NCBI GenBank assembly: GCA_021801605.1
Contig: JAJYXU010000129.1
Span: 1 to 39,749, forward strand
DNA length: 39,749 nucleotides
Reading direction: 5' to 3'
Origin: Bacteroidota bacterium
Lineage (GTDB): Bacteria; Bacteroidota; Ignavibacteria; Ignavibacteriales; Melioribacteraceae
In this document: positions 102-14,041 of the stretch, one piece after another
Layout: every line of letters begins with the position of its first letter
Numbering within the stretch: the first letter of the stretch is position 1
Program-made: the position numbers and the translations under genes
The notes under the pieces: generated by a model
Told to the model about the DNA's origin: nothing
Seen by the model: only the letters and a program-made list of their open reading frames with translations
Database searches by the model: none

Positions 102-2420
102 TTATGACTCATGCGTAACTTCAGTAACTGATCTAATGGTTCTGGAAATTTTTTCAATAATTAATTCTTGGAATTCTGGGTTCTTTCCAAAGATCTCGAT
201 TAAAAGGTTATAAATGTTTTCTTGATATTCATTGATTTCTTTTCTCGTTTTAGGTTGATAATCTTTAAGAGGACTCCCGCTTCCTTGTTTTTCGGCTCCA
301 CTCATTCTATGGAAACCATGAGTTTCTAATCCTCTGCCAAGTGCTTGAATTGCAATGCGAGTATAATCTTGATCTTGTTTTGCTAAACCGTATTTAATTA
401 CTTCAAGCCGTTGATCAAAATTAACCTCAGTTCCAGGTAAAAATATTTGAAAGAGCTGAACAAACTGACCGGTTGCATTATTACCCCATGTTTCATTTTC
501 GGAAACAGCAAATGCGTAAAGTAATTTAGCAGCAAGATCAAAAGTTTCCTTTCTAAAACATAACTTCTCTAATGCCCAAACTAAATTGCGTCTGCCTTTA
601 TCTATTTTGAGCAAATCTTCTTTTGTCATGTTTAGAAATGCTGATGCAATACTTTGAATTAATGATTCAGGGTTCACTTCAACAACTGAGCGGAAGAGTC
701 GTGAACCCAACTCTGTGTTAAGCACTTCCGCCGTTCCGAAAGGGCTTTTTGGCCCCCAGGAATCATTAACAAACTGTCTTGCTTCACTAAGCTGATCTAA
801 ATATTTGAGACGTTCAACAAGTGGTTCTGCTAATCCATGTTTCTCCAATAACGGGAATAGAACTTTCAATTCATCAACTTCTTTATACTTCCACCACTCA
901 AGAGCAAGTTTAATGGCTAATGGAGTCGGTCGAACATTTAAGTAGCGTCCTCTTTTTTCGAAAATTTGTTTCCTAATAAAATAGTTGCAGCTTTCTTTGA
1001 ATAGCGGTCTCGTTGCTGGAGGACTACAAACATTATTAAAAATTATTTTATTCTGTTCCGAAAAATATTTTCTTTCTTGTTCGCTAAGAACTTTAAGATC
1101 ATCATTTACTGAAGTACCAAAATGTGAAAAAGTAGAACAAGCTTTAGCAATATTAAATCGATTATCAAATTTATCTGTTTCTGCATAGTCACGACCGAAC
1201 AATAATTTTTTAATTAACCGATCGTCGAGCATGTCGGTAAATGAATTAATTTTTTTATTCTGCATTGCGTCAGCAAATAATACAGCCATTTTGGGATAAC
1301 CTTCGGAATATTTGCTGATATAATCCAACTCTGATGCATTAAAACGAGTACTAAAGAGAATTTTTAGCAATGCAGGTATAATATCTAAGTAATTTTCACT
1401 TTTAAGAAAAATATAGTTTGTATTACTGGTGGTCTTACTTTTATCGTACTCTTCTTCAACTGAATAATCAATAGTAATAAGATTCATTCTACTAGAAGTG
1501 CGTGTAATTTCTTGTGCAAGAATTTGGTGAGTATCATAACTGCAATTATCAACTACAAGAGTACCATTCAATGATGAACAGTGGCTTCTAACAAAATCAA
1601 CAATCGATTGAACGTTATCTATAATATCGTAATAAACCGCATTTGTTTTTAAACTAGAATCTGATCTAAGAGATTCATGTACAAGGCGACTTTTACCTAA
1701 ACCGGAATGACCTATTATTCTGCTAAATGATTTTTCTTTTCTAGCTTCTGTTTTAAGTGAATTTATATAACCATCGATTGTATAATTGCCAACGAATTGT
1801 ACCCGTCTAATGTCTTCAAATTCTCCCCACTGTTCTATAGTTTTCAATCCATCTGGTCTAGTAATACCGCGATAATACTGAACTGTCAAAACTATGTTGA
1901 TATATTCGTTAACCCAATCTTTAATAAGATTTGCATCTAAAATGCGAACTTGCTCTTTCTTGTATTTAGTTTTATGGACGCGATTACAGTATGTTAATGT
2001 TTTTCTTGCTTTAGACAAACGAGAATCTAATGTTTTCTTAACGTATGACTTGTTAATAAAAAATACATATTGGCCGTTAGCATCTAATACTTCCTTAATT
2101 TTGTCTTTCAATTGTTTTTTTGATTGAGTAGGATTACTAAAAAATTCTTCGAAAACCTTTTGCGGTTTTAGATCCATGGCTTTGCACTGAAAGATAGAAA
2201 ATCTATTTTGGATCCATTTAGAACCATTAGTATTATCACATTCAAGTCTACCATCCTCGCCGGCGTCAGCAATATTGATTTTCAGTGGGACAAGAATATC
2301 CTTTACATTGGTAAAATGATATTTCTCGTATTCAAATTTTAGTAAGCGAAGTAGTATATCTGAAAGTTTAACATCGGTAAGTTGTTCAATTTCCTTGATT
2401 GTAATTTCATTAAGTAACAT
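102..2420 (-). CDS. PD-(D/E)XK nuclease-STAND NTPase fusion, Avs/Mrr-like candidate defence protein
   Basis: This 772-residue protein appears to combine a DNA-cleaving domain with a signalling NTPase. Near the N-terminus, D56 with G57 and E60 are followed by Q78-C79-K80, the D...(E/Q)xK arrangement of Mrr-like PD-(D/E)XK nucleases. A P-loop GHSGLGKS lies at about 237-244 and a Walker B-like TLVVDNC at about 287-293. The C-terminal 350 residues are helical and could be a repeat-type sensor. Such nuclease plus STAND NTPase plus sensor architectures are known from Avs antiphage proteins, although many of those are longer. The ATG start is preceded by GAGG. It lies upstream of no partner gene and sits beside higBA in an integrase-marked island. 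Defence is inferred from architecture and location; assignment to a particular Avs class is not possible by eye. Confidence 0.7.
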   Translation of the reverse strand: MLLNEITIKEIEQLTDVKLSDILLRLLKFEYEKYHFTNVKDILVPLKINIADAGEDGRLECDNTNGSKWIQNRFSIFQCKAMDLKPQKVFEEFFSNPTQSKKQLKDKIKEVLDANGQYVFFINKSYVKKTLDSRLSKARKTLTYCNRVHKTKYKKEQVRILDANLIKDWVNEYINIVLTVQYYRGITRPDGLKTIEQWGEFEDIRRVQFVGNYTIDGYINSLKTEARKEKSFSRIIGHSGLGKSRLVHESLRSDSSLKTNAVYYDIIDNVQSIVDFVRSHCSSLNGTLVVDNCSYDTHQILAQEITRTSSRMNLITIDYSVEEEYDKSKTTSNTNYIFLKSENYLDIIPALLKILFSTRFNASELDYISKYSEGYPKMAVLFADAMQNKKINSFTDMLDDRLIKKLLFGRDYAETDKFDNRFNIAKACSTFSHFGTSVNDDLKVLSEQERKYFSEQNKIIFNNVCSPPATRPLFKESCNYFIRKQIFEKRGRYLNVRPTPLAIKLALEWWKYKEVDELKVLFPLLEKHGLAEPLVERLKYLDQLSEARQFVNDSWGPKSPFGTAEVLNTELGSRLFRSVVEVNPESLIQSIASAFLNMTKEDLLKIDKGRRNLVWALEKLCFRKETFDLAAKLLYAFAVSENETWGNNATGQFVQLFQIFLPGTEVNFDQRLEVIKYGLAKQDQDYTRIAIQALGRGLETHGFHRMSGAEKQGSGSPLKDYQPKTRKEINEYQENIYNLLIEIFGKNPEFQELIIEKISRTIRSVTEVTHES

Positions 2421-2549
2421 AGAACCTCAAATAATTTAATACTTAATACGGAATTAATTGAGAAGGCTATTAAAACAGATTGGTAAATGCTAGAACAGAA
2501 ACCTATATAAATGTTGGAAAGGAAATTTGTGCAAGTCCCCATTATAAGC

Positions 2550-3647
2550 CTAATTGAAAAGATCAATATGAATTTTTATGTCATTCAATCTGGAATGCGG
2601 AATGATATCATCATGCTGTAACCTACCAACAACAATTGCAGGGTGGATGCGCTGTTTATTTGCAAAATCCAGTATAGAAGTTTCGCTGTAAGGTTTATGT
2701 TGAAGTAACTGTTGGTATTGATTATCAGGGATAAGAAACTTACTTGCAAACCTATCTGCTTCAGCTTCTTTTTCTTTATCAATCTTATGCCCGGTAACTT
2801 CTTCTAAGAAAACATCTTTTTTACCATGCAGCAGAATGTGACCAGCTTCATGAAAAAAAGTAAACCAAAAATGATCATTTGTTTTATATCTTCCGGACAA
2901 CTGAATTAGAGGAATAGTTGTGTTAAAAATCCATCTTGTTGCACCGCTAATTGTTGCCTTGGGAATATTTGGTGTATAGACAACAGCAACACCGGTTTCG
3001 GAACATAGTTTTTGAAGTTGATCTTTGAAGTCAGCAGGATGATGAAATGAAAGTTCTTTGATTTTATCAAGACTCTTTCTGAATAAATCTTTATTGAACT
3101 CTTTCAATTGTAGTTTCTTAGCATCAATTTCACCTTTTCTTAACCAAACTGAAATAGCTTCTGGTTCACTAGTATGCACCAAGGAAATTTTGAAAGCAAC
3201 CTTAGCAGCTTTACTAATATAAAGTGTGTTCCATTGCTGGGGAGAAGCAATACCGAAATAGTTTAACATAGATTTTGAAAGCTCGATAGGATTCCTTGTT
3301 TCAGGAATCCAACCAAGTTTCATCATATTTGCTGTGGGAAAATGTTTGGTCCAATCTTTACAATCTTCAAGGTATTCATCAAATTCAATTTCAGCAAGCT
3401 CCTTTTGATATTGTCTATCACGTTCAATCCAAAAGTCTGCGGGTATTCCTAAAACTTTTTCCAGGGCGATAGCTGTTGAAGTTGTGATTGGTTCCTTGCC
3501 TTTGATAATCTGATTAACATTTTTAATGTTCTTGCCAAGACGCTCGGCAAGCTCATACTGATTCATACCAATTACATCAATAGTTTCTTGAATTGTATCA
3601 CCAGGAGGTGAGAGCAATTCTTTTTTAAGTTTATATTCACTAGTCAT
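2550..3647 (-). CDS. higA: HigA-family antitoxin: XRE HTH fused to ImmA/IrrE-like metallopeptidase
   Basis: This antitoxin and autorepressor would bind its own promoter and neutralise the HigB toxin encoded just upstream. Residues about 18-66 form an XRE-type helix-turn-helix of the HigA/VapI kind (QYELAERLG, then IIKGKEPIT). Residues about 210-330 form an ImmA/IrrE zinc peptidase-like domain with HEAGH at about 266-270 and a downstream acidic segment (EAEADRFASKF) supplying the third ligand. A longer reading from TTG at 3659 is possible, but the ATG at 3647 has GAGGT six bases upstream, so 365 residues is preferred. It follows higB by 17 bases in the same operon. HigA proteins with this extra domain are known; whether the peptidase is active, for example in self-cleavage under stress, is not shown here. 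Confidence 0.85.
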   Translation of the reverse strand: MTSEYKLKKELLSPPGDTIQETIDVIGMNQYELAERLGKNIKNVNQIIKGKEPITTSTAIALEKVLGIPADFWIERDRQYQKELAEIEFDEYLEDCKDWTKHFPTANMMKLGWIPETRNPIELSKSMLNYFGIASPQQWNTLYISKAAKVAFKISLVHTSEPEAISVWLRKGEIDAKKLQLKEFNKDLFRKSLDKIKELSFHHPADFKDQLQKLCSETGVAVVYTPNIPKATISGATRWIFNTTIPLIQLSGRYKTNDHFWFTFFHEAGHILLHGKKDVFLEEVTGHKIDKEKEAEADRFASKFLIPDNQYQQLLQHKPYSETSILDFANKQRIHPAIVVGRLQHDDIIPHSRLNDIKIHIDLFN

Positions 3648-3664
3648 GTTATACCTCAAAATAT

Positions 3665-3988
3665 TTAATGATAATCTTCTACTTCCAGAATTTTAATCTG
3701 AGTAACAGCATCCCAATCAAGACCGCCGTCAGATTTAGCTGGAACTGGATCGTGGTCGGGTTCGAAAATAATTCTCCAGTTACCAGATATTTCAACTGAT
3801 ATGTTGCCACCGTGCAGCTCGTGACAGTAAGCAGCAGGGAGTTTTCTCATGACTGACAAAGCAGAAGCGGCACTTAATTCCTTCATTCTTTGGCTTACTT
3901 TTTTTGCCATAACACCATAGGTTTTAGAGATTTCCTTTGGATCCGTTAAGCTCTTTTCCAGTCTTCTTGATTTGAATGTAATCTTCAT
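3665..3988 (-). CDS. higB: HigB/RelE-family toxin, ribosome-dependent mRNA interferase
   Basis: This small basic protein of about 107 residues matches the HigB/RelE plasmid-maintenance toxin family, with conserved segments around RRLEKSLTDP, KLPAAYCHELHG and ISGNWRIIFEP, and a C-terminal ILEVEDYH. Family members cleave mRNA on the ribosome. Toxin first and antitoxin second is the characteristic higBA order. The ATG at 3988 gives the usual N-terminus MKITFKSRRL; a TTG two codons earlier is also open. No clear ribosome binding site precedes the ATG. An AT-rich -10-like stretch lies only about 5-15 bases upstream, so a leaderless or nearly leaderless transcript is possible. A 17-base dyad just upstream is the likely HigA operator. 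Confidence 0.85.
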   Translation of the reverse strand: MKITFKSRRLEKSLTDPKEISKTYGVMAKKVSQRMKELSAASALSVMRKLPAAYCHELHGGNISVEISGNWRIIFEPDHDPVPAKSDGGLDWDAVTQIKILEVEDYH

Positions 3989-4005
3989 ATGCAATATAAT
4001 AATTG

Positions 4006-4022
4006 TTTACAAATATTGTAAA
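4006..4022. promoter_or_regulatory. Candidate HigA operator in the higBA promoter
   Basis: TTTACAA and TTGTAAA form a perfect 7-base dyad around a 3-base centre, 17 bases upstream of higB. It abuts an AT-rich -10-like stretch at about 3992-4003. HigA-type antitoxins repress their own operon through such dyads, so autoregulation is a reasonable inference; binding is not shown. Confidence 0.55.
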
Positions 4023-4139
4023 TGTTTTTTAAATTATTTTTAACGTTAGTGTATCAAGAATCTTATAAAAATATTGACTTTTAACTACTGCAATTATAGT
4101 TTTGAGTTATCTTATTGACCAAGTGTTAATGTAGTTACG

Positions 4140-4166
4140 GAGCCGTTCAATAAATTTGGGCGGCTC
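4140..4166. terminator. Hairpin between higB and the SNF2 helicase gene
   Basis: GAGCCG (4140-4145) pairs with CGGCTC (4161-4166) over a 15-base loop and is followed on the plus strand by TTGTTTT. It lies just past the stop of the minus-strand helicase gene. The T-rich tail is on the plus strand, so it may be an imperfect terminator or a relic. Apart from this hairpin and the higBA promoter dyad, 3,989-4,184 holds nothing recognisable. Confidence 0.35.
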
Positions 4167-4184
4167 TTGTTTTAAATATTCTTA

Positions 4185-7052
4185 TTAAACCGGTGATGAA
4201 ATCAAAGTCCATCTAATTGTAAATAGTTCTTTTGTTTCTATTTTCTGCTTCAACCTAGCTTCGATATCTTCAATTATTTTTTCTTTTCGTTTATCAACTT
4301 CATCTTGAGCTAAAAAGAGATTCCGGCGAAGCTCGCTTCTCTTTTTTTCCATATCCTTAATTTCTCTTTGTGCAGAAACTTTTTCTTCAAGGTTAAGAAT
4401 CTTTCTCGCTTCGGATTTCTTAACACCAATTTCACGATCTAATTCTTTAAGTTCAAGTTCCAAACTACCTTTAAGATCATCAGCCCAACATTCGAGCTTG
4501 TTAATTTCTTCATCAAAGTATTTGGAGTTTCTTTCTTTATTGTGACCGAGAATGATTTCTTTTTCTTTATCCAAATTATCATTCAGCATCGTTACAGCAT
4601 CAAGAGTGATAGCTTGCTGATTAGGTATCATTTCTCCTTCGAGCAAAAATAATTTGCTGCATTGTTCAAGATCCAAAACAATTCCATCATCCGTGAGAGC
4701 GGAAAGTATTACATAGTCTTCTTGTTCGAATGATGAGATTGAATAGTATTGAGCAATCAGCCACCCGGACTTACTTATGAATGGTTCAATGATAGAAATG
4801 ATTTTGTCTTTATAGGTAAAGATTACATCGTAGTTGCCGATAGTGCATGATTTACATTCTTCGATGATTTTTTGCGCTAAAGGATGACCAATTCTATAAA
4901 TGTTTGCATCATCTCCACTCTTAGTAATTTTATAAGGACCAGGATGAATATATTCTTGCGGGAAAGGATTTGTATGAAGGTAGAAAGAATGTTCTAATGA
5001 ATCGAAATTAGCATAATCAGTTAAAAAGTGTTTCGTTAGATTCCAGAGCCATTCTTCATAACGATTTAAGTAATCTTTGCTTTGTTCGAAGTTGATTCTC
5101 AATTTATCTATTACATCTTGATCAAAGTTTTCGAGAAGTTTTTGTCTGGTGATATTAATCGTTTCGTCAATCTGAGGTTCGAATGATTTTTGTAATTCAT
5201 CGAAAGCAAGATTTATTTCTTCGGATGTTCTGCACTTCTGATAAATTTCTACAATTCTTTTTTCAAAATCTATTCCGGATTCTATGGTTCCAAGGACTTC
5301 ATCGCTTGCACCAAAAACACCGCTGAACAATTGAAATTTTTCATCCAACAATTGATAAACTCTTTGATCTGCGGCGTTCTTTTTATTTAAGAAATTTACG
5401 ACAACAACATCAAACGCTTGACCATAACGATGACACCTACCAATGCGTTGTTCAATTCTTTGAGGATTCCAGGGGAGATCGTAATTAACGACCAATGAAC
5501 AAAATTGAAGATTAACGCCTTCAGCAGCTGCTTCCGTTGCAATCATTATTTCAGCTTCGTCTTTGAAATATTCTATAATAGCTGCTCGTTTATCAGCAGT
5601 CTTGGAACCGGAAACTTTATCAGTCCCTTGATGTTTCTTAAGCCACTTATGATAAATTTCGTTGGATAGATGATCGTTATTTGAGCCGTTGAATAAAACT
5701 ATTTTATTTTGAAACGCAGTTCTGTTCAATAAGTCGAAAAGATATTGTTGTGTTCTCGTTGATTCTGTAAAAATGATTGCTTTTCGATTTGCGCCAAGAC
5801 GTTCAATTTCTGTGATACCTCTATTAAGTGCTAAAAGTAGAACCTCGCCTTTGGAATTAATTTGAATAGCCCGTGCGAGTTCAAAAAAGTCTTTCAGTTT
5901 TTGCGATTCTTTCTTTATTTCTTCGATCTGCTCTATGGAATATGTATCTGATTCATCGTTTCCATCATCTTCCCATTCGTCTTTAATTTCTTCGTATTCC
6001 TCATAATTAGTTTGCAGTTCATTTTCGAGCGGAGCTTCTTGAACTTGATTTGATTCGATAATTACATCAAGCTTTTGAGAAAGAGCTTGGAGAGTTCCGG
6101 ATATTGCATAAGTAGATGAAGCTAGGAGTTTTCTTAGAATAAGAGTCATCAATTGTCTTTGACTTGGAGGAAGTGCAAATAATTTTTCAGATTGTAAATA
6201 GTCTGAAACCAAATCATAGAGTTGCTGTTCTTCATCAGTCGGGAAGAATTCTTGTGTGATAGGAATTCTTTTTGTGTAACGAATGTATTCCAGAACTTGT
6301 CTTCTGAGAGTGCGAATACAGACCGGGGCAAGACGCGCTTTTAATTCATTAAAAATATTCTCATCAGCTAGGCGTGAATATTGAATGCGAAAACTCTTCA
6401 AGTCTCCAAAAGCATATTCATCGACAAAACTTACAAGACCAAAAAGTTCTAATAAAGAATTCTGCAATGGTGTTGCAGTAAGTAATATTTTAGGTGCATT
6501 CGCAATAGAATTTTTTATAGAGTTAGCAATTTTATTATTTGGTTTGTAAACGTTACGTAAACGATGAGCCTCATCAATTACAACCAAATCCCAATTTATT
6601 AGACAGATGTATGGTTCTTGTTTACGTGCAAACTGATATGAACAAATAATAATTTCTTTTTGATCGAAAGGATTTAGAATACCTTTTTTTATTTCATCAT
6701 TGAAAGATTTTGTCTCAAGAAGGATAGAGTTTAGAAAAAACTTATCGAGTAGTTCTTGATTCCACTGTTTACGGAGATTAGAGGGAACGATTATTAAAAT
6801 CTTTCTTTTCCTTTCTGCCCACTTTTGAGAAATAACCAACCCGGCTTCTATTGTTTTGCCTAGACCGACTTCATCAGCGAGTATTGCTCCGGTAGATAGT
6901 GGGGAGCGAAAAGCAAAAAGTGCAGCTTCAACTTGATGCGGATTAAGATCAACTTGAGCATCCATCAAAGAGGCAACTAGTTTTTGAATACTGTCTGAAG
7001 GACTATTTTTGGTTAATTCGTAAGCATAATATTTTGCGTGAAAAGGAGTCAA
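4185..7052 (-). CDS. SNF2/RapA-like superfamily 2 helicase, orphan defence-island type
   Basis: This 955-residue ATP-dependent DNA translocase or helicase carries the full SF2/SNF2 motif set: motif I DEVGLGKT (60-67), motif II DEAH (160-163), motif III LTATP (191-195), then in the second lobe TEAAAEGVNLQ and QRIGRCHRYGQ. An acidic insert separates the lobes and the C-terminus has a long charged coiled coil (about residues 830-935). The start codon is TTG directly after an in-frame stop; the early segment HAKYYAYELT followed by DLNPHQ looks like the conserved N-terminus of the family, which supports this start. From memory, relatives occur beside DNA methyltransferases and restriction subunits, but neither is present here, so the partner genes may be lost or outside the window. 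Its specific function is unknown. Confidence 0.8.
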   Translation of the reverse strand: MTPFHAKYYAYELTKNSPSDSIQKLVASLMDAQVDLNPHQVEAALFAFRSPLSTGAILADEVGLGKTIEAGLVISQKWAERKRKILIIVPSNLRKQWNQELLDKFFLNSILLETKSFNDEIKKGILNPFDQKEIIICSYQFARKQEPYICLINWDLVVIDEAHRLRNVYKPNNKIANSIKNSIANAPKILLTATPLQNSLLELFGLVSFVDEYAFGDLKSFRIQYSRLADENIFNELKARLAPVCIRTLRRQVLEYIRYTKRIPITQEFFPTDEEQQLYDLVSDYLQSEKLFALPPSQRQLMTLILRKLLASSTYAISGTLQALSQKLDVIIESNQVQEAPLENELQTNYEEYEEIKDEWEDDGNDESDTYSIEQIEEIKKESQKLKDFFELARAIQINSKGEVLLLALNRGITEIERLGANRKAIIFTESTRTQQYLFDLLNRTAFQNKIVLFNGSNNDHLSNEIYHKWLKKHQGTDKVSGSKTADKRAAIIEYFKDEAEIMIATEAAAEGVNLQFCSLVVNYDLPWNPQRIEQRIGRCHRYGQAFDVVVVNFLNKKNAADQRVYQLLDEKFQLFSGVFGASDEVLGTIESGIDFEKRIVEIYQKCRTSEEINLAFDELQKSFEPQIDETINITRQKLLENFDQDVIDKLRINFEQSKDYLNRYEEWLWNLTKHFLTDYANFDSLEHSFYLHTNPFPQEYIHPGPYKITKSGDDANIYRIGHPLAQKIIEECKSCTIGNYDVIFTYKDKIISIIEPFISKSGWLIAQYYSISSFEQEDYVILSALTDDGIVLDLEQCSKLFLLEGEMIPNQQAITLDAVTMLNDNLDKEKEIILGHNKERNSKYFDEEINKLECWADDLKGSLELELKELDREIGVKKSEARKILNLEEKVSAQREIKDMEKKRSELRRNLFLAQDEVDKRKEKIIEDIEARLKQKIETKELFTIRWTLISSPV

Positions 7053-7372: not shown

Positions 7373-8260
7373 ATGCCCATTGAAAGGTTTTCATTTACTG
7401 AACTTGAAAAACGATTAGAGGAAATCGAACTTGATATTGATAAAATCGAGTTCATTTCGAAAGAAATTGTAAGGTGCAGGAATGCGATTCAAGATGTTAA
7501 GTGTGAAGCAAAGAATATAGAACCGACCGAAATAAAACTTTCCGCAAAAACAGTTAATCAAGAGACTTCCCTAGTTGAACTTGTCAATTCTGATAAGAAA
7601 ATTAAACGAACAATCACAAAGAAGATTGTAAAGATTTGTGCAAAGAATCTTTGTCAAGAGTATTATGATTTTTTAGAACGATCGGAAAATCAGCTGGCTT
7701 TTTACAAAACCAAATTGGAAGCAAGGGCAACTTGGAATGAATGTTTTAATAATGAGAATGAAATCATTAAGATTAACGATTCCACAACCAGGATAGTTTG
7801 GAAATTGGGCGATGTTCAACTTGTAGCATTATTTGATTGCCTTCATAGAAATGTGTGTGTTCCGAAGTGTATAAAAGAAGAAATACTAGCTCATTTTACA
7901 GATGAAAATCAGATTCCTTTTAGTCATATGAGAATACATTTCAGAAAAATTACTTGGCTAAAAAGCGATAGCAGCTTTTCTATTTTTGTTGATGAACTGG
8001 CACAGAGAAAAGCAATCGACGAAGAGAATAAATACAAAATGTTTGAAAAACATTTTTGTAATAGAAACGGTAAACCGTTCAAATATTTAGCACAGAAAAA
8101 GAATAATACAATTAACTACACCGAAACAGTCAAATGGATTAGAAAGATTCTTGATTCAGTCGAAATAGTATTCATGTTTTTTGTTTCACAAAGCAATTTT
8201 TGGTTTGATAACACTTTACGCGAATATTTAAAAAGTATATCAGACTATATCATAACTTGA
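7373..8260 (+). CDS. Unrecognised protein of the mobile module
   Basis: I cannot assign this 295-residue protein to a family with confidence. It is charged and helical at the N-terminus (about 1-130, coiled-coil like). It then has a globular part with WKLGDVQLVALFDCLHRN at about 142-159 and HFCNRNGKPFKYLAQ at about 226-240. Those two segments recall C-terminal regions of RteC-like or hypothetical proteins common in Bacteroidota mobile elements, but this is a weak resemblance. The start is well supported by AAGGGGG eight bases upstream. The gene precedes the excisionase-like and integrase genes on the same strand, and its last codons run into the GATATACTT repeat cluster, so a regulatory or replication role in the element is plausible but unproven. 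Confidence 0.55.
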   Translation: MPIERFSFTELEKRLEEIELDIDKIEFISKEIVRCRNAIQDVKCEAKNIEPTEIKLSAKTVNQETSLVELVNSDKKIKRTITKKIVKICAKNLCQEYYDFLERSENQLAFYKTKLEARATWNECFNNENEIIKINDSTTRIVWKLGDVQLVALFDCLHRNVCVPKCIKEEILAHFTDENQIPFSHMRIHFRKITWLKSDSSFSIFVDELAQRKAIDEENKYKMFEKHFCNRNGKPFKYLAQKKNNTINYTETVKWIRKILDSVEIVFMFFVSQSNFWFDNTLREYLKSISDYIIT

Positions 8261-8340
8261 TAGCCTTCGATATACTTTTGGGGGTAGTGGTAAAAAAGTA
8301 TATCATACTTTATCGATTTGCGATATACTTCGATATACTG
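8233..8340. repeat. Iteron-like cluster of GATATACTT / AAGTATATC
   Basis: The 9-mer occurs perfectly four times in 108 bases: AAGTATATC at 8233-8241 and 8296-8304, and the inverse GATATACTT at 8269-8277 and 8322-8330. A fifth copy at 8332-8340 has one mismatch, and a weaker match lies at 8243-8251. The first copy lies inside the end of the preceding gene. The cluster is upstream of the HTH and integrase genes, so it could be an operator for the HTH protein, integrase arm sites, or part of an origin. Confidence 0.75.
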
Positions 8341-8407
8341 TGATAAATACTTTTTCTTGTTTTTCTATTTCATATTTCTCATGTAATTAATCAATATGAG
8401 GTATGAG

Positions 8408-8848
8408 ATGAAAAAACAGGATTCTTCCCCACATAAAGCGGGATCAGAACAAGCTTCGCTTGACCAAACCATCCTACAAAAACTTTCCACGCTAGAAGAT
8501 TTACTAAAGAAGAAAGATGATAAACCACTAACCTTCAAAGAAGCATGCGCTTATCTCGGGTATGCACCAAGTTATCTTTACAAATTAACCTATCGAAAAG
8601 TCATTCCACATTACAAACCAACCGGCAAGATGATTTTCTTTTCAAAGAATGAGATTGATGAGTGGGTCTATAAGAGCAATGTAAAATTGAGAACTGAGAA
8701 TGCGGAATTGCATGATGAAAATAATGTTGAAAAGGATCCGAATCAGTTTGAGATGGGTTTTGATGAAAAGAAGGATAAAAGGAATGAAGAAAAAAATGAA
8801 ACCGAAATACTGATTGAGTTTCCACTGAAAAGCAGAAGAAAACAATAG
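8408..8848 (+). CDS. Excisionase-like helix-turn-helix DNA-binding protein
   Basis: This 146-residue protein has a central winged HTH of the MerR/excisionase type. The segment LTFKEACAYLGYAPSYLYKL and then IPHYKPTGKMIFFSKNEIDEWV (about residues 40-86) has the pattern seen in Xis-like and helix_turn_helix_17 proteins of Bacteroidota mobile elements. A charged, low-complexity C-terminal tail follows. The ATG at 8408 has GAGG six bases upstream and is preferred to the in-frame ATG at 8396. It ends 15 bases before the integrase gene, as expected for an integrase/excisionase pair. The repeat cluster at 8233-8340 lies just upstream and may be its binding array. A role in excision or in regulating the module is inferred. 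Confidence 0.75.
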   Translation: MKKQDSSPHKAGSEQASLDQTILQKLSTLEDLLKKKDDKPLTFKEACAYLGYAPSYLYKLTYRKVIPHYKPTGKMIFFSKNEIDEWVYKSNVKLRTENAELHDENNVEKDPNQFEMGFDEKKDKRNEEKNETEILIEFPLKSRRKQ

Positions 8849-8863
8849 CACGCAGATTGAGAA

Positions 8864-9967
8864 ATGAATAAGATATTAAAAAATATTTCTGTTGATGATC
8901 TTGAAAAGTTACGAATGCTGCTTTCGATTATTCCAGGGAATGAACAAAAGAACACTGTTACGCTTCGTGTTTTTACAAATGAATACAGTAATATGATAAA
9001 ACAAAATAGATCGAAGGCATATTCCGTTTCTGTTTGCAGTTCTTTCAAGCATTTAACTGAATTCTTTGGAAGTGGGAAATCTATTCAATCAATCGGATTG
9101 AAAGATGTGGAAAAGTTTGTGCTTTTTCTTCAACGAAAAGTTAAAAAGGGTTACCGAGTTTATGTTAGAACAATAAAAGCCGCTTTCAATAAAGCAAAAG
9201 ATTGGGGTTATGTAAAAGAAAACTATTTTCAAAAAGTAAAGCTGCCGAAAAAACAGCAAGTGAACCCGGTATTTTTGAATAGTGATCAATTATTAGTGAT
9301 TTGTGATCACTTAAAGAATGAGACTATTAAAGACATTGTTGTATTCGCGTTTTATACTGGAATGCGTTTAGACGAAATTGTGAATTTGAGATTGAAGAAT
9401 GTTGATCTACAGAATAAAGTAATTACGGTTGGTGATGATAGTTTTACGACTAAAGGAAGAAATCAAAGGTTCGTACCTATTAGTGAGGAAGCGGAAAAAG
9501 CAATTGAGAATTTAGAATTGAGAATTCAGAATGAAAAGAAAAAGATCATTTCGATTAAGTCTCTCAGCTACAATCGAAATTTTGTTTTCTGTAAGAGTAG
9601 CGGAGAGCAATTTACCGGGGATTATATTTCTAAAAGATTTAAGCTTGCTTGTAAAACTGCTGGAGTAAATCAATCTATTCATTTCCATTCTCTAAGACAT
9701 TCATTTGCTTCTAATCTTGTTCAGAAAGGTGTTCCACTTTATACGATAAAAGAACTACTCGGGCATTCATCGATTTCAACAACCGAGATTTATTCGCATT
9801 TGAATATGGATTCATTGAGAGAGGCTGTTAAAAAGCTAGACACTTCGGCTCCGCTCAGTGCAGGTGCAAGTAGTGAGATATTAGAAACAAGACAAATGCA
9901 AAAACTAAATCTTGAAGAGAATACACGATTACAAATATTTAGTATTAATTCCGGAGAAAAGAGATGA
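8864..9967 (+). CDS. Tyrosine recombinase / integrase of the mobile module
   Basis: This 367-residue phage-type integrase has a SAM-like core-binding domain (about 30-130) and a catalytic domain (about 135-325). All key residues are visible: Arg168 in TGMRLDEI, His275 and Arg278 in HFHSLRHSF, His301 in LLGHSSISTTE, and the nucleophile Tyr310 in EIYSHL. Such enzymes carry out site-specific DNA strand exchange for integration and excision. A C-terminal tail of about 40 residues follows the catalytic domain. The stop overlaps the start of the primase gene by four bases (ATGA), so the two are translationally coupled. This is unusual for an integrase lying at an element end and suggests one integration-replication transcript. 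It differs from the second integrase at 12,850-13,893, although both share the family motifs. Confidence 0.92.
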   Translation: MNKILKNISVDDLEKLRMLLSIIPGNEQKNTVTLRVFTNEYSNMIKQNRSKAYSVSVCSSFKHLTEFFGSGKSIQSIGLKDVEKFVLFLQRKVKKGYRVYVRTIKAAFNKAKDWGYVKENYFQKVKLPKKQQVNPVFLNSDQLLVICDHLKNETIKDIVVFAFYTGMRLDEIVNLRLKNVDLQNKVITVGDDSFTTKGRNQRFVPISEEAEKAIENLELRIQNEKKKIISIKSLSYNRNFVFCKSSGEQFTGDYISKRFKLACKTAGVNQSIHFHSLRHSFASNLVQKGVPLYTIKELLGHSSISTTEIYSHLNMDSLREAVKKLDTSAPLSAGASSEILETRQMQKLNLEENTRLQIFSINSGEKR

Positions 9968-12294
9968 TACAATTTCTGGAAATGGCAAAGATTTATAAGA
10001 ACGTTTTCGGATTTAATGTTCTACCTATCCAGGGGAAACAACCAACTATTCCTTGGGAGAATTGGCAATTGATTGAACAGACTGAACAGGATGTAATTGA
10101 AATGAGCTGGAATGCAGGTGTAACCGGTATCGGCGGAATTTGTGGAGTGAATGATTTACGGAATATCGATTTCGATAAAGTAATTGATTTTAGCATAGTT
10201 GAAATGATTTGTAAAAGATTAGGACTTGGTGAAAAATATAAGTGGGCGGTGAAAAGTGGAAGCGGTGTTGGTTATCATATTTGGATTAAAGCTAGTGAAA
10301 GTGAGCAATTGCATAAAAGATTGAACGGATCCAAAAGTGTTTATCGGCTGTATTTGAAAGATGAGGGATTGTGTGATCATATTGAATTGAGATGGAACCA
10401 ATCCCAAACAGTTCTTCCCTATTCTAAACATGAAAGCGGAAATAGATATTTGTTTTTATACGATGAACCAAAAGAACCACCAACAGAAATTGACGCGGAT
10501 ATTTTACTAGACTGTTTGGAAGAGTTTTGCGACTTAAAGAAAGAGAGAGAAGTTCTTGAAGTTGGTAAGCGAACTTTTGAACCAACTAGTTTTGATAAAG
10601 AGAAATTAGAAAGTGCAATTGAATTTCTTGAAATGAATCTACCGAATAATTGTTATGATGATTGGTATAGAATCGGTTTTGGTTTGGTAACAATTGGAGA
10701 AGAAGGTAGAAAATATTTTTTGAAGATGAGTTTAGGAAATCAACATTATCATGATTCGGAGTTTGCGATAAATAAAAAGTTTGACGAACTGATGAAGAAA
10801 TCTGATGGAAGAATAACACTTGGAACTGTTTATCATATAGCCGAAAAGTTTGGATGGCAGAAACCTTTTGTAAGATTCTGGTATATCGAGAATGATAAGA
10901 CTCATATTTCAAAACAGAATTTTAAGAGATTTCTTGAAGAGAATGGATTTTGTAAGCTGCAATTAGAACGCGGTTATATTCTGCTGAAGGTTAGCAAGAA
11001 TATTGTTCGTGAAGTGGAGATTTTCAATATCAAGGATTTTGTAATCGATTATCTGAAGCGATTGGATGTTGAGCATTTCAAAGAGACACCACGTATAAAA
11101 GTAATTGATGCTGTTATCAAAGGCGCACCGCAACATTTTGTCCAGACATTTCTTGAATTCTTGGAAACGAGAGAATTAGAATTTTTGCGCGATACAAAAG
11201 ATAAAGGATTTCTCTTTTTCTCAAATTGTTTTGTTGAGATTGCATCGAATAAGATTAATGTTAAAAGATATGAAGAACTGGACGGTTTCATCTGGGATAA
11301 ACAGGTAATAAACAAAAGATTGAATCTTGACATGAGAGAATCTGAGTTTGAAATCTTTATTAAGAACATTTGCAAAAATGATGAGCAAAGAATTTCATCA
11401 TTAAGAAGTGCGATCGGATATTTACTGCATAATTATAAAGATTCAACGAATGCAAAAGCTGTGATTTTTCTTGATGAAAAATTAAGTGACGGCGCTTATG
11501 GAAGAAGCGGAAAGGGTTTGGTTGCTCAAGCAATTGGAAAGCTTAGGAAAACCATTCGTTTGGATGGTAGGAATTTTAATTTCTCGAAGAGTTTTAGTTT
11601 TCAATCTGTTACTCTAGATACAGCAATTATAGAATTCAATGATGTAACAAAGAAATTCAATTTCGACAAATTGTTTTCAATCATAACTGATGATATTACT
11701 GTCGAAAAGAAAAACCAAAATGAAATAATTATCCCATTTCATCAATCGCCAAAGATTATAATTTCCACAAACTACACGATTGAAGGATCCGATGATTCTA
11801 CAATGGACCGTCAATTTGTTATTGAGTTTTCTGATCACTACAATAAAATCCACAGACCGATTGATGAGTTCGGACATAGATTTTATGATGAATGGAGTAA
11901 TGAGGAATGGAATTGCTTTCTCAATTACATGATTAGCTGTCTTCAGTTGTATTTGAATAAAGGATTAATTCACTGCAATCACGTAAATCTGGAAAAGAAA
12001 AAACTTATTGATTCAACATGTGAAGAGTTTGCCGAATACTTTGAATCATTGGGATTAAATGTTGAGCATAATAAAAAAGAATTGCTGGAAGATTTTAAGA
12101 AAAATTATGATGAATTCAGCGAACTGAAATTAACCAAATTTACCAGGTGGATGAAGGAAGCGGCAAGGATAAAAGGATTGGGTGTTAGTGAAAGAAAATC
12201 CGGAGTTGATCGGTTGATCAAATTCAGGAATGGAAAAACAACCGATTCTAACGCCGATAATGAACAGACAGAGTTAGAACCAACATTATTTTAA
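9964..12294 (+). CDS. Prim-pol / PriCT / SF3-like primase-helicase replication protein
   Basis: This 776-residue replication initiator is typical of phage satellites and integrative plasmids. Residues about 1-190 form a bifunctional primase-polymerase domain, with acidic RNIDFD at 66-71 and the SGSGVGYHIW segment at 98-107. Residues about 211-300 match a primase C-terminal (PriCT) domain, from CYDDWYRIGFGL to ITLGTVYHIAEKFGW. Residues about 470-680 form a D5/DUF5906-like helicase, with P-loop GRSGKG at 513-518 and Walker B-like AIIEFND at 554-560, followed by IIISTNY. It is translated from an ATGA overlap with the integrase gene. The TTGGAC cluster begins six bases after its stop, giving a self-contained initiator plus candidate origin. 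Primer synthesis and unwinding are inferred from domains. Confidence 0.87.
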   Translation: MIQFLEMAKIYKNVFGFNVLPIQGKQPTIPWENWQLIEQTEQDVIEMSWNAGVTGIGGICGVNDLRNIDFDKVIDFSIVEMICKRLGLGEKYKWAVKSGSGVGYHIWIKASESEQLHKRLNGSKSVYRLYLKDEGLCDHIELRWNQSQTVLPYSKHESGNRYLFLYDEPKEPPTEIDADILLDCLEEFCDLKKEREVLEVGKRTFEPTSFDKEKLESAIEFLEMNLPNNCYDDWYRIGFGLVTIGEEGRKYFLKMSLGNQHYHDSEFAINKKFDELMKKSDGRITLGTVYHIAEKFGWQKPFVRFWYIENDKTHISKQNFKRFLEENGFCKLQLERGYILLKVSKNIVREVEIFNIKDFVIDYLKRLDVEHFKETPRIKVIDAVIKGAPQHFVQTFLEFLETRELEFLRDTKDKGFLFFSNCFVEIASNKINVKRYEELDGFIWDKQVINKRLNLDMRESEFEIFIKNICKNDEQRISSLRSAIGYLLHNYKDSTNAKAVIFLDEKLSDGAYGRSGKGLVAQAIGKLRKTIRLDGRNFNFSKSFSFQSVTLDTAIIEFNDVTKKFNFDKLFSIITDDITVEKKNQNEIIIPFHQSPKIIISTNYTIEGSDDSTMDRQFVIEFSDHYNKIHRPIDEFGHRFYDEWSNEEWNCFLNYMISCLQLYLNKGLIHCNHVNLEKKKLIDSTCEEFAEYFESLGLNVEHNKKELLEDFKKNYDEFSELKLTKFTRWMKEAARIKGLGVSERKSGVDRLIKFRNGKTTDSNADNEQTELEPTLF

Positions 12295-12299
12295 TGAGG

Positions 12300-12488
12300 T
12301 TGGACGTTTGGACACTTTGATTTCTATATCGGGCAAGAATTCCTATTTCAAAACGTCCAAGTGTCCAAATTTTAGAATACAGATTGTTTTTAACGATTTC
12401 TTGGACAGATTGGTGGGCGTTTTGGATAAAAACTGTGAAGGAAAATGATTTTTGGACGTTTTACTACTTGGAAAGTGTCCATTTGGAC
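12300..12488. repeat. TTGGAC iteron cluster, candidate replication origin
   Basis: Seven perfect TTGGAC hexamers occur in 189 bases. Plus-strand copies are at 12300, 12308, 12401, 12452 and 12483; minus-strand copies are at 12355-12360 and 12363-12368. Near matches lie at 12422 (TTGGAT), 12468 (TTGGAA) and 12477-12482 (GTCCAT). Several sit in tandem head-to-head pairs, with extended forms such as TTTGGACACTT and AAGTGTCCAAA. They lie in the non-coding gap after the primase-helicase gene, the arrangement of an initiator and its iterons. Confidence 0.75.
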
Positions 12489-12540
12489 AGTTTGAAATTG
12501 TCGGGAAAACCAGATTTGAATAAATATATTGGAGATGAAA

Positions 12541-12753
12541 ATGAAACTAACACCTCTGAAGGCAATTAAAAAACATTGTTTGGAGTGTTCCGGGTACGAA
12601 AAGAAAGAAGTCCGGGAATGTAATATTACAGATTGTGTATTATTCGCCTACCGGCTCGGCTCTAATCCAAACCGGAAAGGATGCACTGTAAAGAAAAATG
12701 CCGCTTCAACAACAGGTTTTGAAAATGTCGATGGTTATGTATCTGCTTCATAG
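12541..12753 (+). CDS. Small Cys-rich mobile-element protein, probable zinc-binding
   Basis: This 70-residue protein carries CLECSG near the N-terminus, then VRECNITDC and VLFAYRLGSNPNRKGC. The CxxC ... C-x5-C spacing followed by YRxGxNP is a pattern I recall from small proteins of prophages and integrative elements, where the cysteines are presumed to bind zinc. The ATG at 12541 is chosen because GGAG lies six bases upstream; an earlier in-frame ATG and TTG overlap that site. It follows the TTGGAC cluster, and the convergent integrase gene lies beyond a strong hairpin. The function is unknown; a DNA-binding or accessory replication role would fit the location but is only a guess. Confidence 0.65.
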   Translation: MKLTPLKAIKKHCLECSGYEKKEVRECNITDCVLFAYRLGSNPNRKGCTVKKNAASTTGFENVDGYVSAS

Positions 12754-12808
12754 ATTCATCTGGAAAATGAACGTTGAAGCTGAAGAAATTTCTAGAGAAA
12801 TGAAAATT

Positions 12809-12841
12809 AAGCATACTCACGGAATCGCCGTGAGTATGCTT
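12809..12841. terminator. Bidirectional intrinsic terminator between convergent genes
   Basis: A perfect 14-base inverted repeat, AAGCATACTCACGG with CCGTGAGTATGCTT, flanks a 5-base loop. It lies between the end of the Cys-rich gene (plus) and the stop of the second integrase (minus). Short T-rich tracts follow on the plus strand (TTTCAATT) and minus strand (TTAATTTT). Confidence 0.75.
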
Positions 12842-12849
12842 TCAATTGG

Positions 12850-13893
12850 TTACAACAAATTTACCGCATCTCTCAAATTCTTCTGCTGCAGGTGACTATA
12901 TATTTGGGTTGTTGCCAAATCCTCATGGCCTAATAATTCTTTTACAACATAAAGAGAAACACCACGCTGAACCAACAGCGAAGCGAAAGAATGCCGGAGA
13001 GAATGGAAATGTACTTTATCACTCAGATTAGATTTACGGATAATTTTTTTGAATTGCTTACTTATCGCATCTTGATATAAAATCTTTCCTTCGATTCGAT
13101 AGAAAACAACATTCTCATGTTGGTGTGATGAATTGTTAAAGCGATTGAATAAAATTGTTCTGACCTTTTCATTCATAGGAACAATCCTTTCTTTTTTGTT
13201 CTTAGTTAGAAATTGATCTGAGCATTTAACAGTAATTTGATTCTGAAAGAAGTCGATCCAATTCCATTGCATATTGACCAATTCACCGAGACGTAAACCG
13301 GAATAAAAACCTACAGTGAAAATATCTTTAAGATGCTGATATGGAGTATTTGATAAAACAATTAAGAATTCGTCTTCTTGAATGAATGTTGGAAAAGCTT
13401 TTGGAATTTTTGGGAACTTTACCTTTGTGAATGGATTCGATGAAATGTAATTCCATTCAACAGCTTTGTTAAATGCTGCCTTTAATGTACGATAATATTG
13501 ATGAGCACCTCTCTGTGTACGATGGAATGTTGAGTAAATAAATTTATCTATTGTTTTTAAGTTAATTTCTTCTAGAGAAATATCCCCACAAAATGAAACA
13601 AGTTGCTTGAATGCAAAGGCAATTGAATCGATATATCTTTTCGATTTAACCGGGCGAGCATAATCCAGATATTCGTCTTTGAATTTTGAGAGAGTAAGCT
13701 TATTTTGAGTACAAGTTTTTTGAAGTACTGAAGAAACAGCACCCAAAGGATTTACCAAAGTTTTTTTGAATTCTTGGAGATATTGTAAAGCTCCTTTTTC
13801 GTTAGTCTTTTTTGTTGAATAAGTAGTTCTCTTACCTTCAACAAAATAAACGATTTGGTAATACTTTGATCTTTTGATTTTTGCTACATACAT
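12850..13893 (-). CDS. Tyrosine recombinase / integrase at the island border
   Basis: This 347-residue site-specific recombinase has a small N-terminal arm-binding domain (about 1-48), a core-binding domain (about 65-160) and a catalytic domain (about 165-345). The catalytic residues are Arg201 (SGLRLGEL), His297 and Arg300 (HFHSLRHSF), His323 (LLGHEDLATTQ) and Tyr332 (QIYSHL). The ATG is preceded by AGGAG, so the start is secure. Its 5' end lies about 90 bases from the tRNA-Arg fragment at 13,985-14,026. That is the expected geometry for the enzyme that inserted the island into a tRNA-Arg gene. The intervening bases contain three GTATG direct repeats and a GCACTT/AAGTGC dyad that might be arm-type sites. 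It is only distantly similar to the integrase at 8,864. Confidence 0.93.
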   Translation of the reverse strand: MYVAKIKRSKYYQIVYFVEGKRTTYSTKKTNEKGALQYLQEFKKTLVNPLGAVSSVLQKTCTQNKLTLSKFKDEYLDYARPVKSKRYIDSIAFAFKQLVSFCGDISLEEINLKTIDKFIYSTFHRTQRGAHQYYRTLKAAFNKAVEWNYISSNPFTKVKFPKIPKAFPTFIQEDEFLIVLSNTPYQHLKDIFTVGFYSGLRLGELVNMQWNWIDFFQNQITVKCSDQFLTKNKKERIVPMNEKVRTILFNRFNNSSHQHENVVFYRIEGKILYQDAISKQFKKIIRKSNLSDKVHFHSLRHSFASLLVQRGVSLYVVKELLGHEDLATTQIYSHLQQKNLRDAVNLL

Positions 13894-13984
13894 GGTTTTT
13901 CTCCTCGTATGTAGTGTATGTATTTTGTATGCACTTGTACTTAAAAAGTGCTAATACAACATCAAAAAGAAAGATTCTGTATGC

Positions 13985-14026
13985 CTACGGATCAGAAGGT
14001 TTGGGGTTCGAATCCCTACGGGTGTA
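13985..14026 (+). pseudogene. 3' fragment of tRNA-Arg(ACG), probable att site
   Basis: The sequence from CTACGGA (anticodon loop with ACG) through the 3' anticodon stem strand, variable loop, T-arm (TGGGG-TTCGAAT-CCCTA) and 3' acceptor strand CGGGTGT plus A reads as a tRNA-Arg from the anticodon onwards. The upstream bases do not supply the matching 5' anticodon, D-arm or acceptor strands. Such a 3' half beside an integrase gene is the usual footprint of integration into a tRNA gene. It differs from the intact tRNA-Arg(TCG) nearby, so it is not a local duplication of that gene. Confidence 0.75.
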
Positions 14027-14041
14027 CTACTATGAATGCAG

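Follow-up and report, generated by a model that had tools for sequence, protein, structure and literature searches.

Gene content of the locus

The window, by which the whole analysed stretch of 39,749 nucleotides is meant, carries a module composed of an ORF, a helix-turn-helix (HTH) protein, a tyrosine recombinase (Int1), a replication initiator, an iteron array, a small ORF, a second tyrosine recombinase (Int2) and the 3' half of a tRNA-Arg gene, in this order. The first ORF (7373-8260) has no confident family assignment. The HTH protein (8396-8848, plus strand) is of the excisionase type (HTH_17, 8.5e-11; TIGR01764 excise, 3.5e-9) and precedes Int1 (8864-9967, plus strand; Pfam PF00589, 2e-38), whose gene overlaps that of the initiator (9964-12294, plus strand) by four bases. 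Relatives of Int1 are also found upstream of many homologous initiators. Beyond the iterons lies a small conserved cysteine-containing ORF (12541-12753, plus strand), which has no family match in Pfam, PHROGs or NCBIfam; counting the window, 18 of 68 loci have a relative of this ORF behind the initiator. Int2 (12850-13893, minus strand; PF00589, 2e-34) adjoins the attachment site and is probably the integrase of the element.

The attachment-site copy (13985-14032, plus strand) corresponds to the 3' half of tRNA-Arg(ACG) and has about 48 bp in common with an intact tRNA-Arg(ACG) gene with the same end on contig C181 of the genome (29 bp exact by search, the full stretch read by eye). Since the two lie on different contigs and the window holds no second copy of at least a 14-mer, the left border of the element being outside the window, we infer rather than observe that the tRNA half and the intact copy belong to one element. 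The mobile character of the module, part of the original prediction, holds on the strength of this tRNA half, its intact counterpart and the neighbouring integrase gene. According to PMC5862659, bacterial primases of related families are mostly encoded by mobile elements integrated in the genome, many of which occupy tRNA genes. Pfam and PHROGs identified no packaging or phage interference genes (terS, capsid remodelling) among the six proteins of the module, the search covering 7373-14032 and the left end of the element lying outside the window. No raised copy number is visible in the coverage given in the assembly titles (18.0, 19.9 and 18.3 for three WY2.bin67 contigs, the long contigs being mostly chromosome), and no terminal overlaps of the kind that mark circular contigs were found in L033, L037, L035 and L040.

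The window has further features. A PD-Lambda-4_A-like protein (102-2420), an HTH and peptidase M78 protein (2550-3659), a HigB-like toxin (3665-3994) and a DrmD-like SNF2 helicase that scores below the NCBIfam cut-off (4185-7052) form a defence-like and toxin-antitoxin-like set at 102-7052 that may be cargo of the element. Between the ORF at 7373-8260 and the HTH gene, a second, palindromic repeat cluster (8230-8355) contains AAGTATATC and GATATACTT words in two similar halves 63 bp apart. Among 12 related loci only L042 has a comparable cluster, and the one in the window is probably an operator of the HTH-Int1-initiator operon.

The initiator protein

The initiator had been predicted to be prim-pol/SF3-like, and this description is borne out by Pfam, by an AlphaFold2 model (mean pLDDT 83.3, pTM 0.60, 46-row alignment) and by structure matches. 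Pfam identifies the Prim-Pol (residues ~1-195; 1.4e-10) and PriCT_2 (221-293; 9.6e-10) domains, while the D5/SF3-type AAA+ helicase of the SaPI kind (~302-690) and the winged helix (701-756) are assigned by predicted structure; the C-terminal tail (758-776) is modelled with low confidence. The first Foldseek match of the model is the PrimPol of African swine fever virus (AsfvPrimPol), with the SaPI5 primase-helicase at rank 47. With a second structure aligner, the top match is the SaPI5 primase-helicase (7ola, Z 21.7 across 334 residues; 7om0, Z 21.3 across 302-750), and the pRN1 Prim-Pol aligns with the N-terminal domain (3m1m, Z 14.7 over 1-194; 1rni, Z 14.5). By sequence, phmmer found no relative of solved structure, and a profile search for solved structures returned weak primase matches only (E 0.15 or worse).

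In the model, the winged helix, encoded at 12064-12231 (plus strand), has a beta-hairpin wing with strands 739-746 and 749-756 and the motif ERKSG (residues 743-747) near the wing turn. This domain is proposed as the reader of the iterons. The same genome encodes a second relative of the initiator (L002, G000:C183:8911-11208), 49% identical and with GGAC-type sites of its own past the gene, and a partial third on contig C96.

The repeat array

The array consists of seven exact copies of TTGGAC within 189 bp (12300-12488), located on the plus strand at 12300, 12308, 12401, 12452 and 12483 and on the minus strand at 12355 and 12363. The stop codon of the initiator ends at 12294, so that the first copy begins six bases past it, as originally reported; the several one-mismatch copies mentioned at the same time were located at 12422 and 12468 (plus strand), 12477 (minus strand) and 12529. 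A recount also upholds the contrast between seven copies and the roughly 0.1 first expected, as about 0.08 are expected per 189 bp and, when the window was dinucleotide-shuffled 1000 times, no 189-bp segment contained more than three (a number reached in 33 shuffles). With 19 copies in the whole window against 17.0 expected, TTGGAC is not rare overall, but clustered, and between 7060 and 14032 it is confined to the array. Among hexamers with at least three different letters, none clusters as strongly anywhere in the window as TTGGAC does in the array (Poisson tail 9e-12; best of 100 shuffles 1.5e-7), and within 350 nt past the stop of the initiator a top hexamer count of seven was reached in none of 300 shuffles. 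Across the 3.24-Mb genome there are three TTGGAC tandem pairs with a gap of 0-4 bases, two of them in the array, compared with one for the backwards control.

The copies form two sets. In the first, a head-to-head unit (12300-12368), the tandem pair 12300/12308 on the plus strand faces the tandem pair 12355/12363 on the minus strand. The second, looser set (12401-12488) comprises the exact copies at 12401, 12452 and 12483 and the one-mismatch copies at 12422, 12468 and 12477. The stretch between them (12369-12400) is richer in A+T (78% versus 65% for the window), a level that 8.6% of 32-nt windows equal or exceed; no marked A+T-rich melting site is seen, and this stretch is a weak candidate for one. 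As to the non-coding nature of the 189 bases, a mechanically called 61-aa ORF with a TTG start (12384-12569) overlaps the second set; as it bears no sign of being a gene, the claim stands as probable and falls short of proven.

Conservation of the arrays among relatives

The relatives of the initiator came from 49 of 196 relatives' genomes, 21 genome-contig loci, 43 of 164 genomes of the order, 26 of 395 genomes of the phylum, at least 80 viral-contig loci and phage and plasmid records, the named records including Melioribacter, Stygiobacter, Ignavibacteriales and other Bacteroidetes-labelled MAGs. An earlier, simple test of the top hexamer in 350 nt past the stop gave shuffle p values of 0.003 or less in six of 38 loci (L001, L033, L048, L040 and the Salinibacter plasmids pSR14 and pSR31). 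As A-rich words dominate this test, the strongest repeated 7-mer was scored instead, corrected for composition, in 400 nt around the gene stop against all other 400-nt windows of the same locus. This was done for 123 of 125 non-redundant loci, two being left out because of short flanks or an insufficient number of control windows.

The stop window was strictly the most repeat-rich in 23 of 56 bacterial and plasmid loci (2.8 expected), a set that includes the window itself (L057), and was not the best repeat window in the other 33; among the matches listed, it was best in one of 67 viral-contig loci (2.1 expected), a set that holds two near relatives (L054 and L139), and in neither set are the loci independent, near relatives being included. 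This difference assigns the array to the integrative and plasmid branch of the family, not to the phage branch. Conservation of repeats beside homologous primase-helicases, on which the original prediction had staked itself, is thus observed, circular plasmids included.

The sequence of the repeats differs among these loci. Words of the TTGGAC type rank highest in the relatives of the window and in the distant L061, while the top words elsewhere are TGGACCA (pSR14), TGTCACA (pSR31), CCGGACC (L120), CGGACAA (L121), AATCACT (L119), AGTGTTG (L122), GTGACAC (L137), AGTGACG (L136) and CCCCGCA (L129). The additional loci L221, L223, L226 and L229 carry pairs of the AGTGATAA, AGTGCATA and AGTGAAAA types in the same arrangement. 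Of the 25 units in which tandem pairs of the GGAC type face each other, 18 have an offset of 52-54 bp, the class to which the 12300-12368 unit belongs, whereas six of seven AGTG-type units have offsets of 111-127 bp. Of the 25 GGAC units, 14 have a first arm that starts ahead of the stop codon, within the final codons of the initiator gene, and several close relatives have one head-to-head unit only (for example L012/L047/L054, L041 and L035/L009). The iteron sequence therefore varies between lineages while its placement and the head-to-head tandem pairs persist, and TTGGAC is only one of several iteron sequences in the protein family of the initiator.

The bare pair pattern was rejected as a marker of the family, being present in 74 of the 196 relatives' genomes, compared with 49 for the protein, and its backwards control being frequent as well. 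Facing TTGGAC-type pairs with a 63-bp offset occur in L234 (G034:C41) and L235 (G020:C4), where the 5 kb examined contain no relative of the helicase. As read by eye, L003, L050, L042/L004, L045 and L044 each have, past the initiator stop, a similar A+T-rich stretch of some 200 nt that contains an inverted repeat and separates the gene from the repeats or ORFs that follow; it is perhaps a small mobile repeat.

Wing residues and iteron class

The Salinibacter plasmids pSR14 (14,894 bp) and pSR31 (31,647 bp), both complete circular records, encode proteins (L090, 2433-4754, and L091, 74-2398, respectively) that join the same helicase/winged-helix module to a different N-terminal half, which may resemble a zinc/TOPRIM primase. 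In the gene tables of both plasmids, which are incomplete, the module gene is the sole recognisable replication initiator, annotated as "hypothetical" in pSR31. It is followed by gaps of 380 and 420 nt, respectively, with many iterons on both strands. When aligned, the gaps show a common scaffold in which the iterons have switched from the GGTCCA to the GTCACA type at matching places, in concert. The two initiators are 94% identical, and their 43 differences are densest in the last 30 residues (9 of 43, p 1.3e-5), with six in residues 301-742 and the rest mainly in the first 300. At the wing, pSR14 has KDG together with the GGAC type and pSR31 has KNG together with the AGTG type, the same direction as the trend across the family.

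This trend concerns the residue that follows the wing Ser/Thr, and is to be read with the GGAC and AGTG classes having been defined after the flanks were inspected. Where this residue is Gly or Asp (41 of 68 loci), 36 loci have GGAC pairs, five have none (the SG-wing loci L003, L018, L019, L021 and L050) and zero have AGTG pairs; where it is Asn (13 of 68), 11 have AGTG pairs, two have none and zero have GGAC pairs. Neither wing type is present at the aligned column in 14 of the 68 loci, the off-type wings being DG with GGAC (L090 and L121), NG with AGTG (L091), NG with GGAC (L120), EK with AGTG (L225) and nine without pairs. Of these, L120 (RNG with GGAC) contradicts the trend. CGGAC outnumbers TGGAC in the Asp loci L016, L022 and L218 (3, 4 and 3 versus 0, 0 and 1), while in the SG loci L018, L019 and L224 both are equal in number and in L021 CGGAC is the more numerous. 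On a tree of the helicase core (44 rows), the iteron class changes three times, giving two to three independent pairs and a sign-test p of 0.5, with four of the wing labels set by hand. With so few independent changes, the covariation of wing and iteron is a lead and is not statistically established.

It may tentatively be suggested, as a possibility that we regard as rather less than even, that in mobile elements of the Bacteroidota group a few wing residues re-target one helicase/winged-helix module to new origins. The residue after the Ser/Thr would set the iteron class (Gly for TGGAC, Asp for CGGAC, Asn for AGTG), the whole array would switch in concert and the origins would become mutually exclusive. 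If true, pSR14 and pSR31 would represent the natural states before and after a wing-set origin switch. The relation makes the long-standing question of a joint change of specificity in initiators and origins directly testable on two near-identical plasmid initiators of a harmless halophile.

Function of the array and alternative explanations

Taken together, the sequence, the modelled initiator and the analogy with known systems make it highly probable that 12300-12488 is the replication origin, or the core of the origin, of a mobile element integrated in tRNA-Arg, bound by the initiator of the element itself. The origin had been proposed from the array of the window, and the repeat clusters 3' of homologous genes support that proposal. 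In the putative mechanism, the winged helix would bind the tandem iterons, with the wing reading part of their sequence, and the facing pairs would bring two helicase rings onto the DNA in head-to-head orientation, a scheme already put forward for SaPI Rep and Cch2. The helicase would then melt the intervening DNA, and the Prim-Pol domain would prime synthesis. Host polymerases extend primed DNA, and the element could in this way replicate after excision by Int and Xis.

Three other functions can be considered for the array. It could be an operator or copy-control site, at which the initiator or the HTH protein represses or handcuffs, or a determinant of incompatibility like the crr of P4, with initiation taking place elsewhere. 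Its location where the initiator operon ends and a small ORF follows would suit this role, the single short unit of some relatives is small for an origin, and iterons often serve in both origin and copy control. However, the array lies 3' of the gene and not over a visible promoter of the operon, the palindromic cluster at 8230-8355 ahead of the HTH-Int1-initiator operon is a better operator candidate and, even as an operator, the array would remain a site for the initiator, all of which renders this explanation unlikely. A role in recombination, as arm-type or core sites of Int1 or Int2, deserves hardly any credence. Two tyrosine recombinase genes flank the initiator and the arm sites of integrases may take the form of short direct repeats, but the array is about 1.5 kb away from the attachment-site copy at 13985-14032, and arrays also accompany initiator genes beside which no relative of Int1 or Int2 is found (for example L090, L091, L119-L122, L136 and L221, with flanks of mostly about 1.5 kb). 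In addition, no integrase is among the 21 features of the pSR14 table, and the one in the pSR31 table is about 19 kb off.

The initiator could also recognise a DNA hairpin formed by 12300-12368, as in a stem-loop origin of the pRN1 type, rather than double-stranded repeats. The single-stranded DNA fold of 12294-12374 is relatively stable (z -2.47, with 3 of 200 shuffles as good), and the pRN1 initiator, for which a 3' stem-loop is described as needed for replication in the corresponding part of PMC4234260, has the same domain order. Against this, the arms keep the TTGGAC cores while the dinucleotides between cores are not complementary (the fold pairs them as G-T wobbles), the second set (12401-12488) does not form a single hairpin, and pSR14, pSR31 and others have many tandem iteron copies, so that recognition of a hairpin is very improbable.

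The support across lineages for the array as an origin bound by its own initiator means that such origins may be found by looking directly past the primase-helicase gene, also in Ignavibacteria and their relatives. As one module carries several iteron types, the case is more instructive than the original prediction had recognised, and since relatives keep the layout while the repeat sequence changes, the family is a good test bed for the recognition of origins by initiators. If the initiator and the array constitute a working mini-replicon, they would be a possible replication tool for poorly tractable bacteria.

Comparison with known replication systems

The arrangement is already known in kind from SaPI/PICI, SCCmec and pRN1 and is in this sense not new; literature searches returned no description of such origins in Ignavibacteria and relatives. 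In SCCmec, Cch2 is described, in the part of PMC7581432 that treats it, as a self-loading helicase that binds direct repeats in the intergenic region 3' of its own gene, a putative origin. As in SCCmec, the repeats of the window come after the helicase gene and next to a recombinase gene; SCCmec, however, encodes its primase and its helicase as two proteins and uses a Ccr-type recombinase, whereas tyrosine recombinases and a tRNA site are found here. The alpha protein of the satellite phage P4 is a primase-helicase-origin-binding protein with short iterons (ori/crr), and on this general description alone it resembles the system of the window, a primase-helicase initiator with short iterons. 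Alpha and its cognate site are also mentioned in the section of PMC6092414 dealing with P4.

The origins of PICIs and SaPIs are located immediately 3' of rep and contain an A+T-rich region between two iteron sets, and the rep-ori of an E. coli PICI was tested in a plasmid (relevant passages of PMC6092414); in SaPIs, the C-terminal domain recognises the iterons (relevant passage of PMC7581432). Likewise, the primase-helicase gene of the window stands directly before an array of short iterons and its helicase has the SaPI5 fold (Z 21.7), and there are two iteron sets, although without a clear A+T-rich middle (78% versus 65% A+T). The differences are a primase formed by a pRN1-like Prim-Pol with PriCT_2, other iteron sequences, hosts among Ignavibacteria and other bacteria of the Bacteroidota group, and no phage-packaging gene seen in 7373-14032.

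Like ORF904 of pRN1, the initiator combines within a single protein, and in the same order, a Prim-Pol, an SF3-type helicase and a winged helix at the C-terminus; further points in common are the Prim-Pol matches to 3m1m and 1rni and the location of the putative origin 3' of the gene. The pRN1 origin is a non-coding stretch 3' of orf904 described as a 100-nt stem-loop, and stem-loops were proposed by its authors for this type of protein (origin section of PMC4234260). Here, iteron arrays that differ between lineages fit better than a stem-loop.
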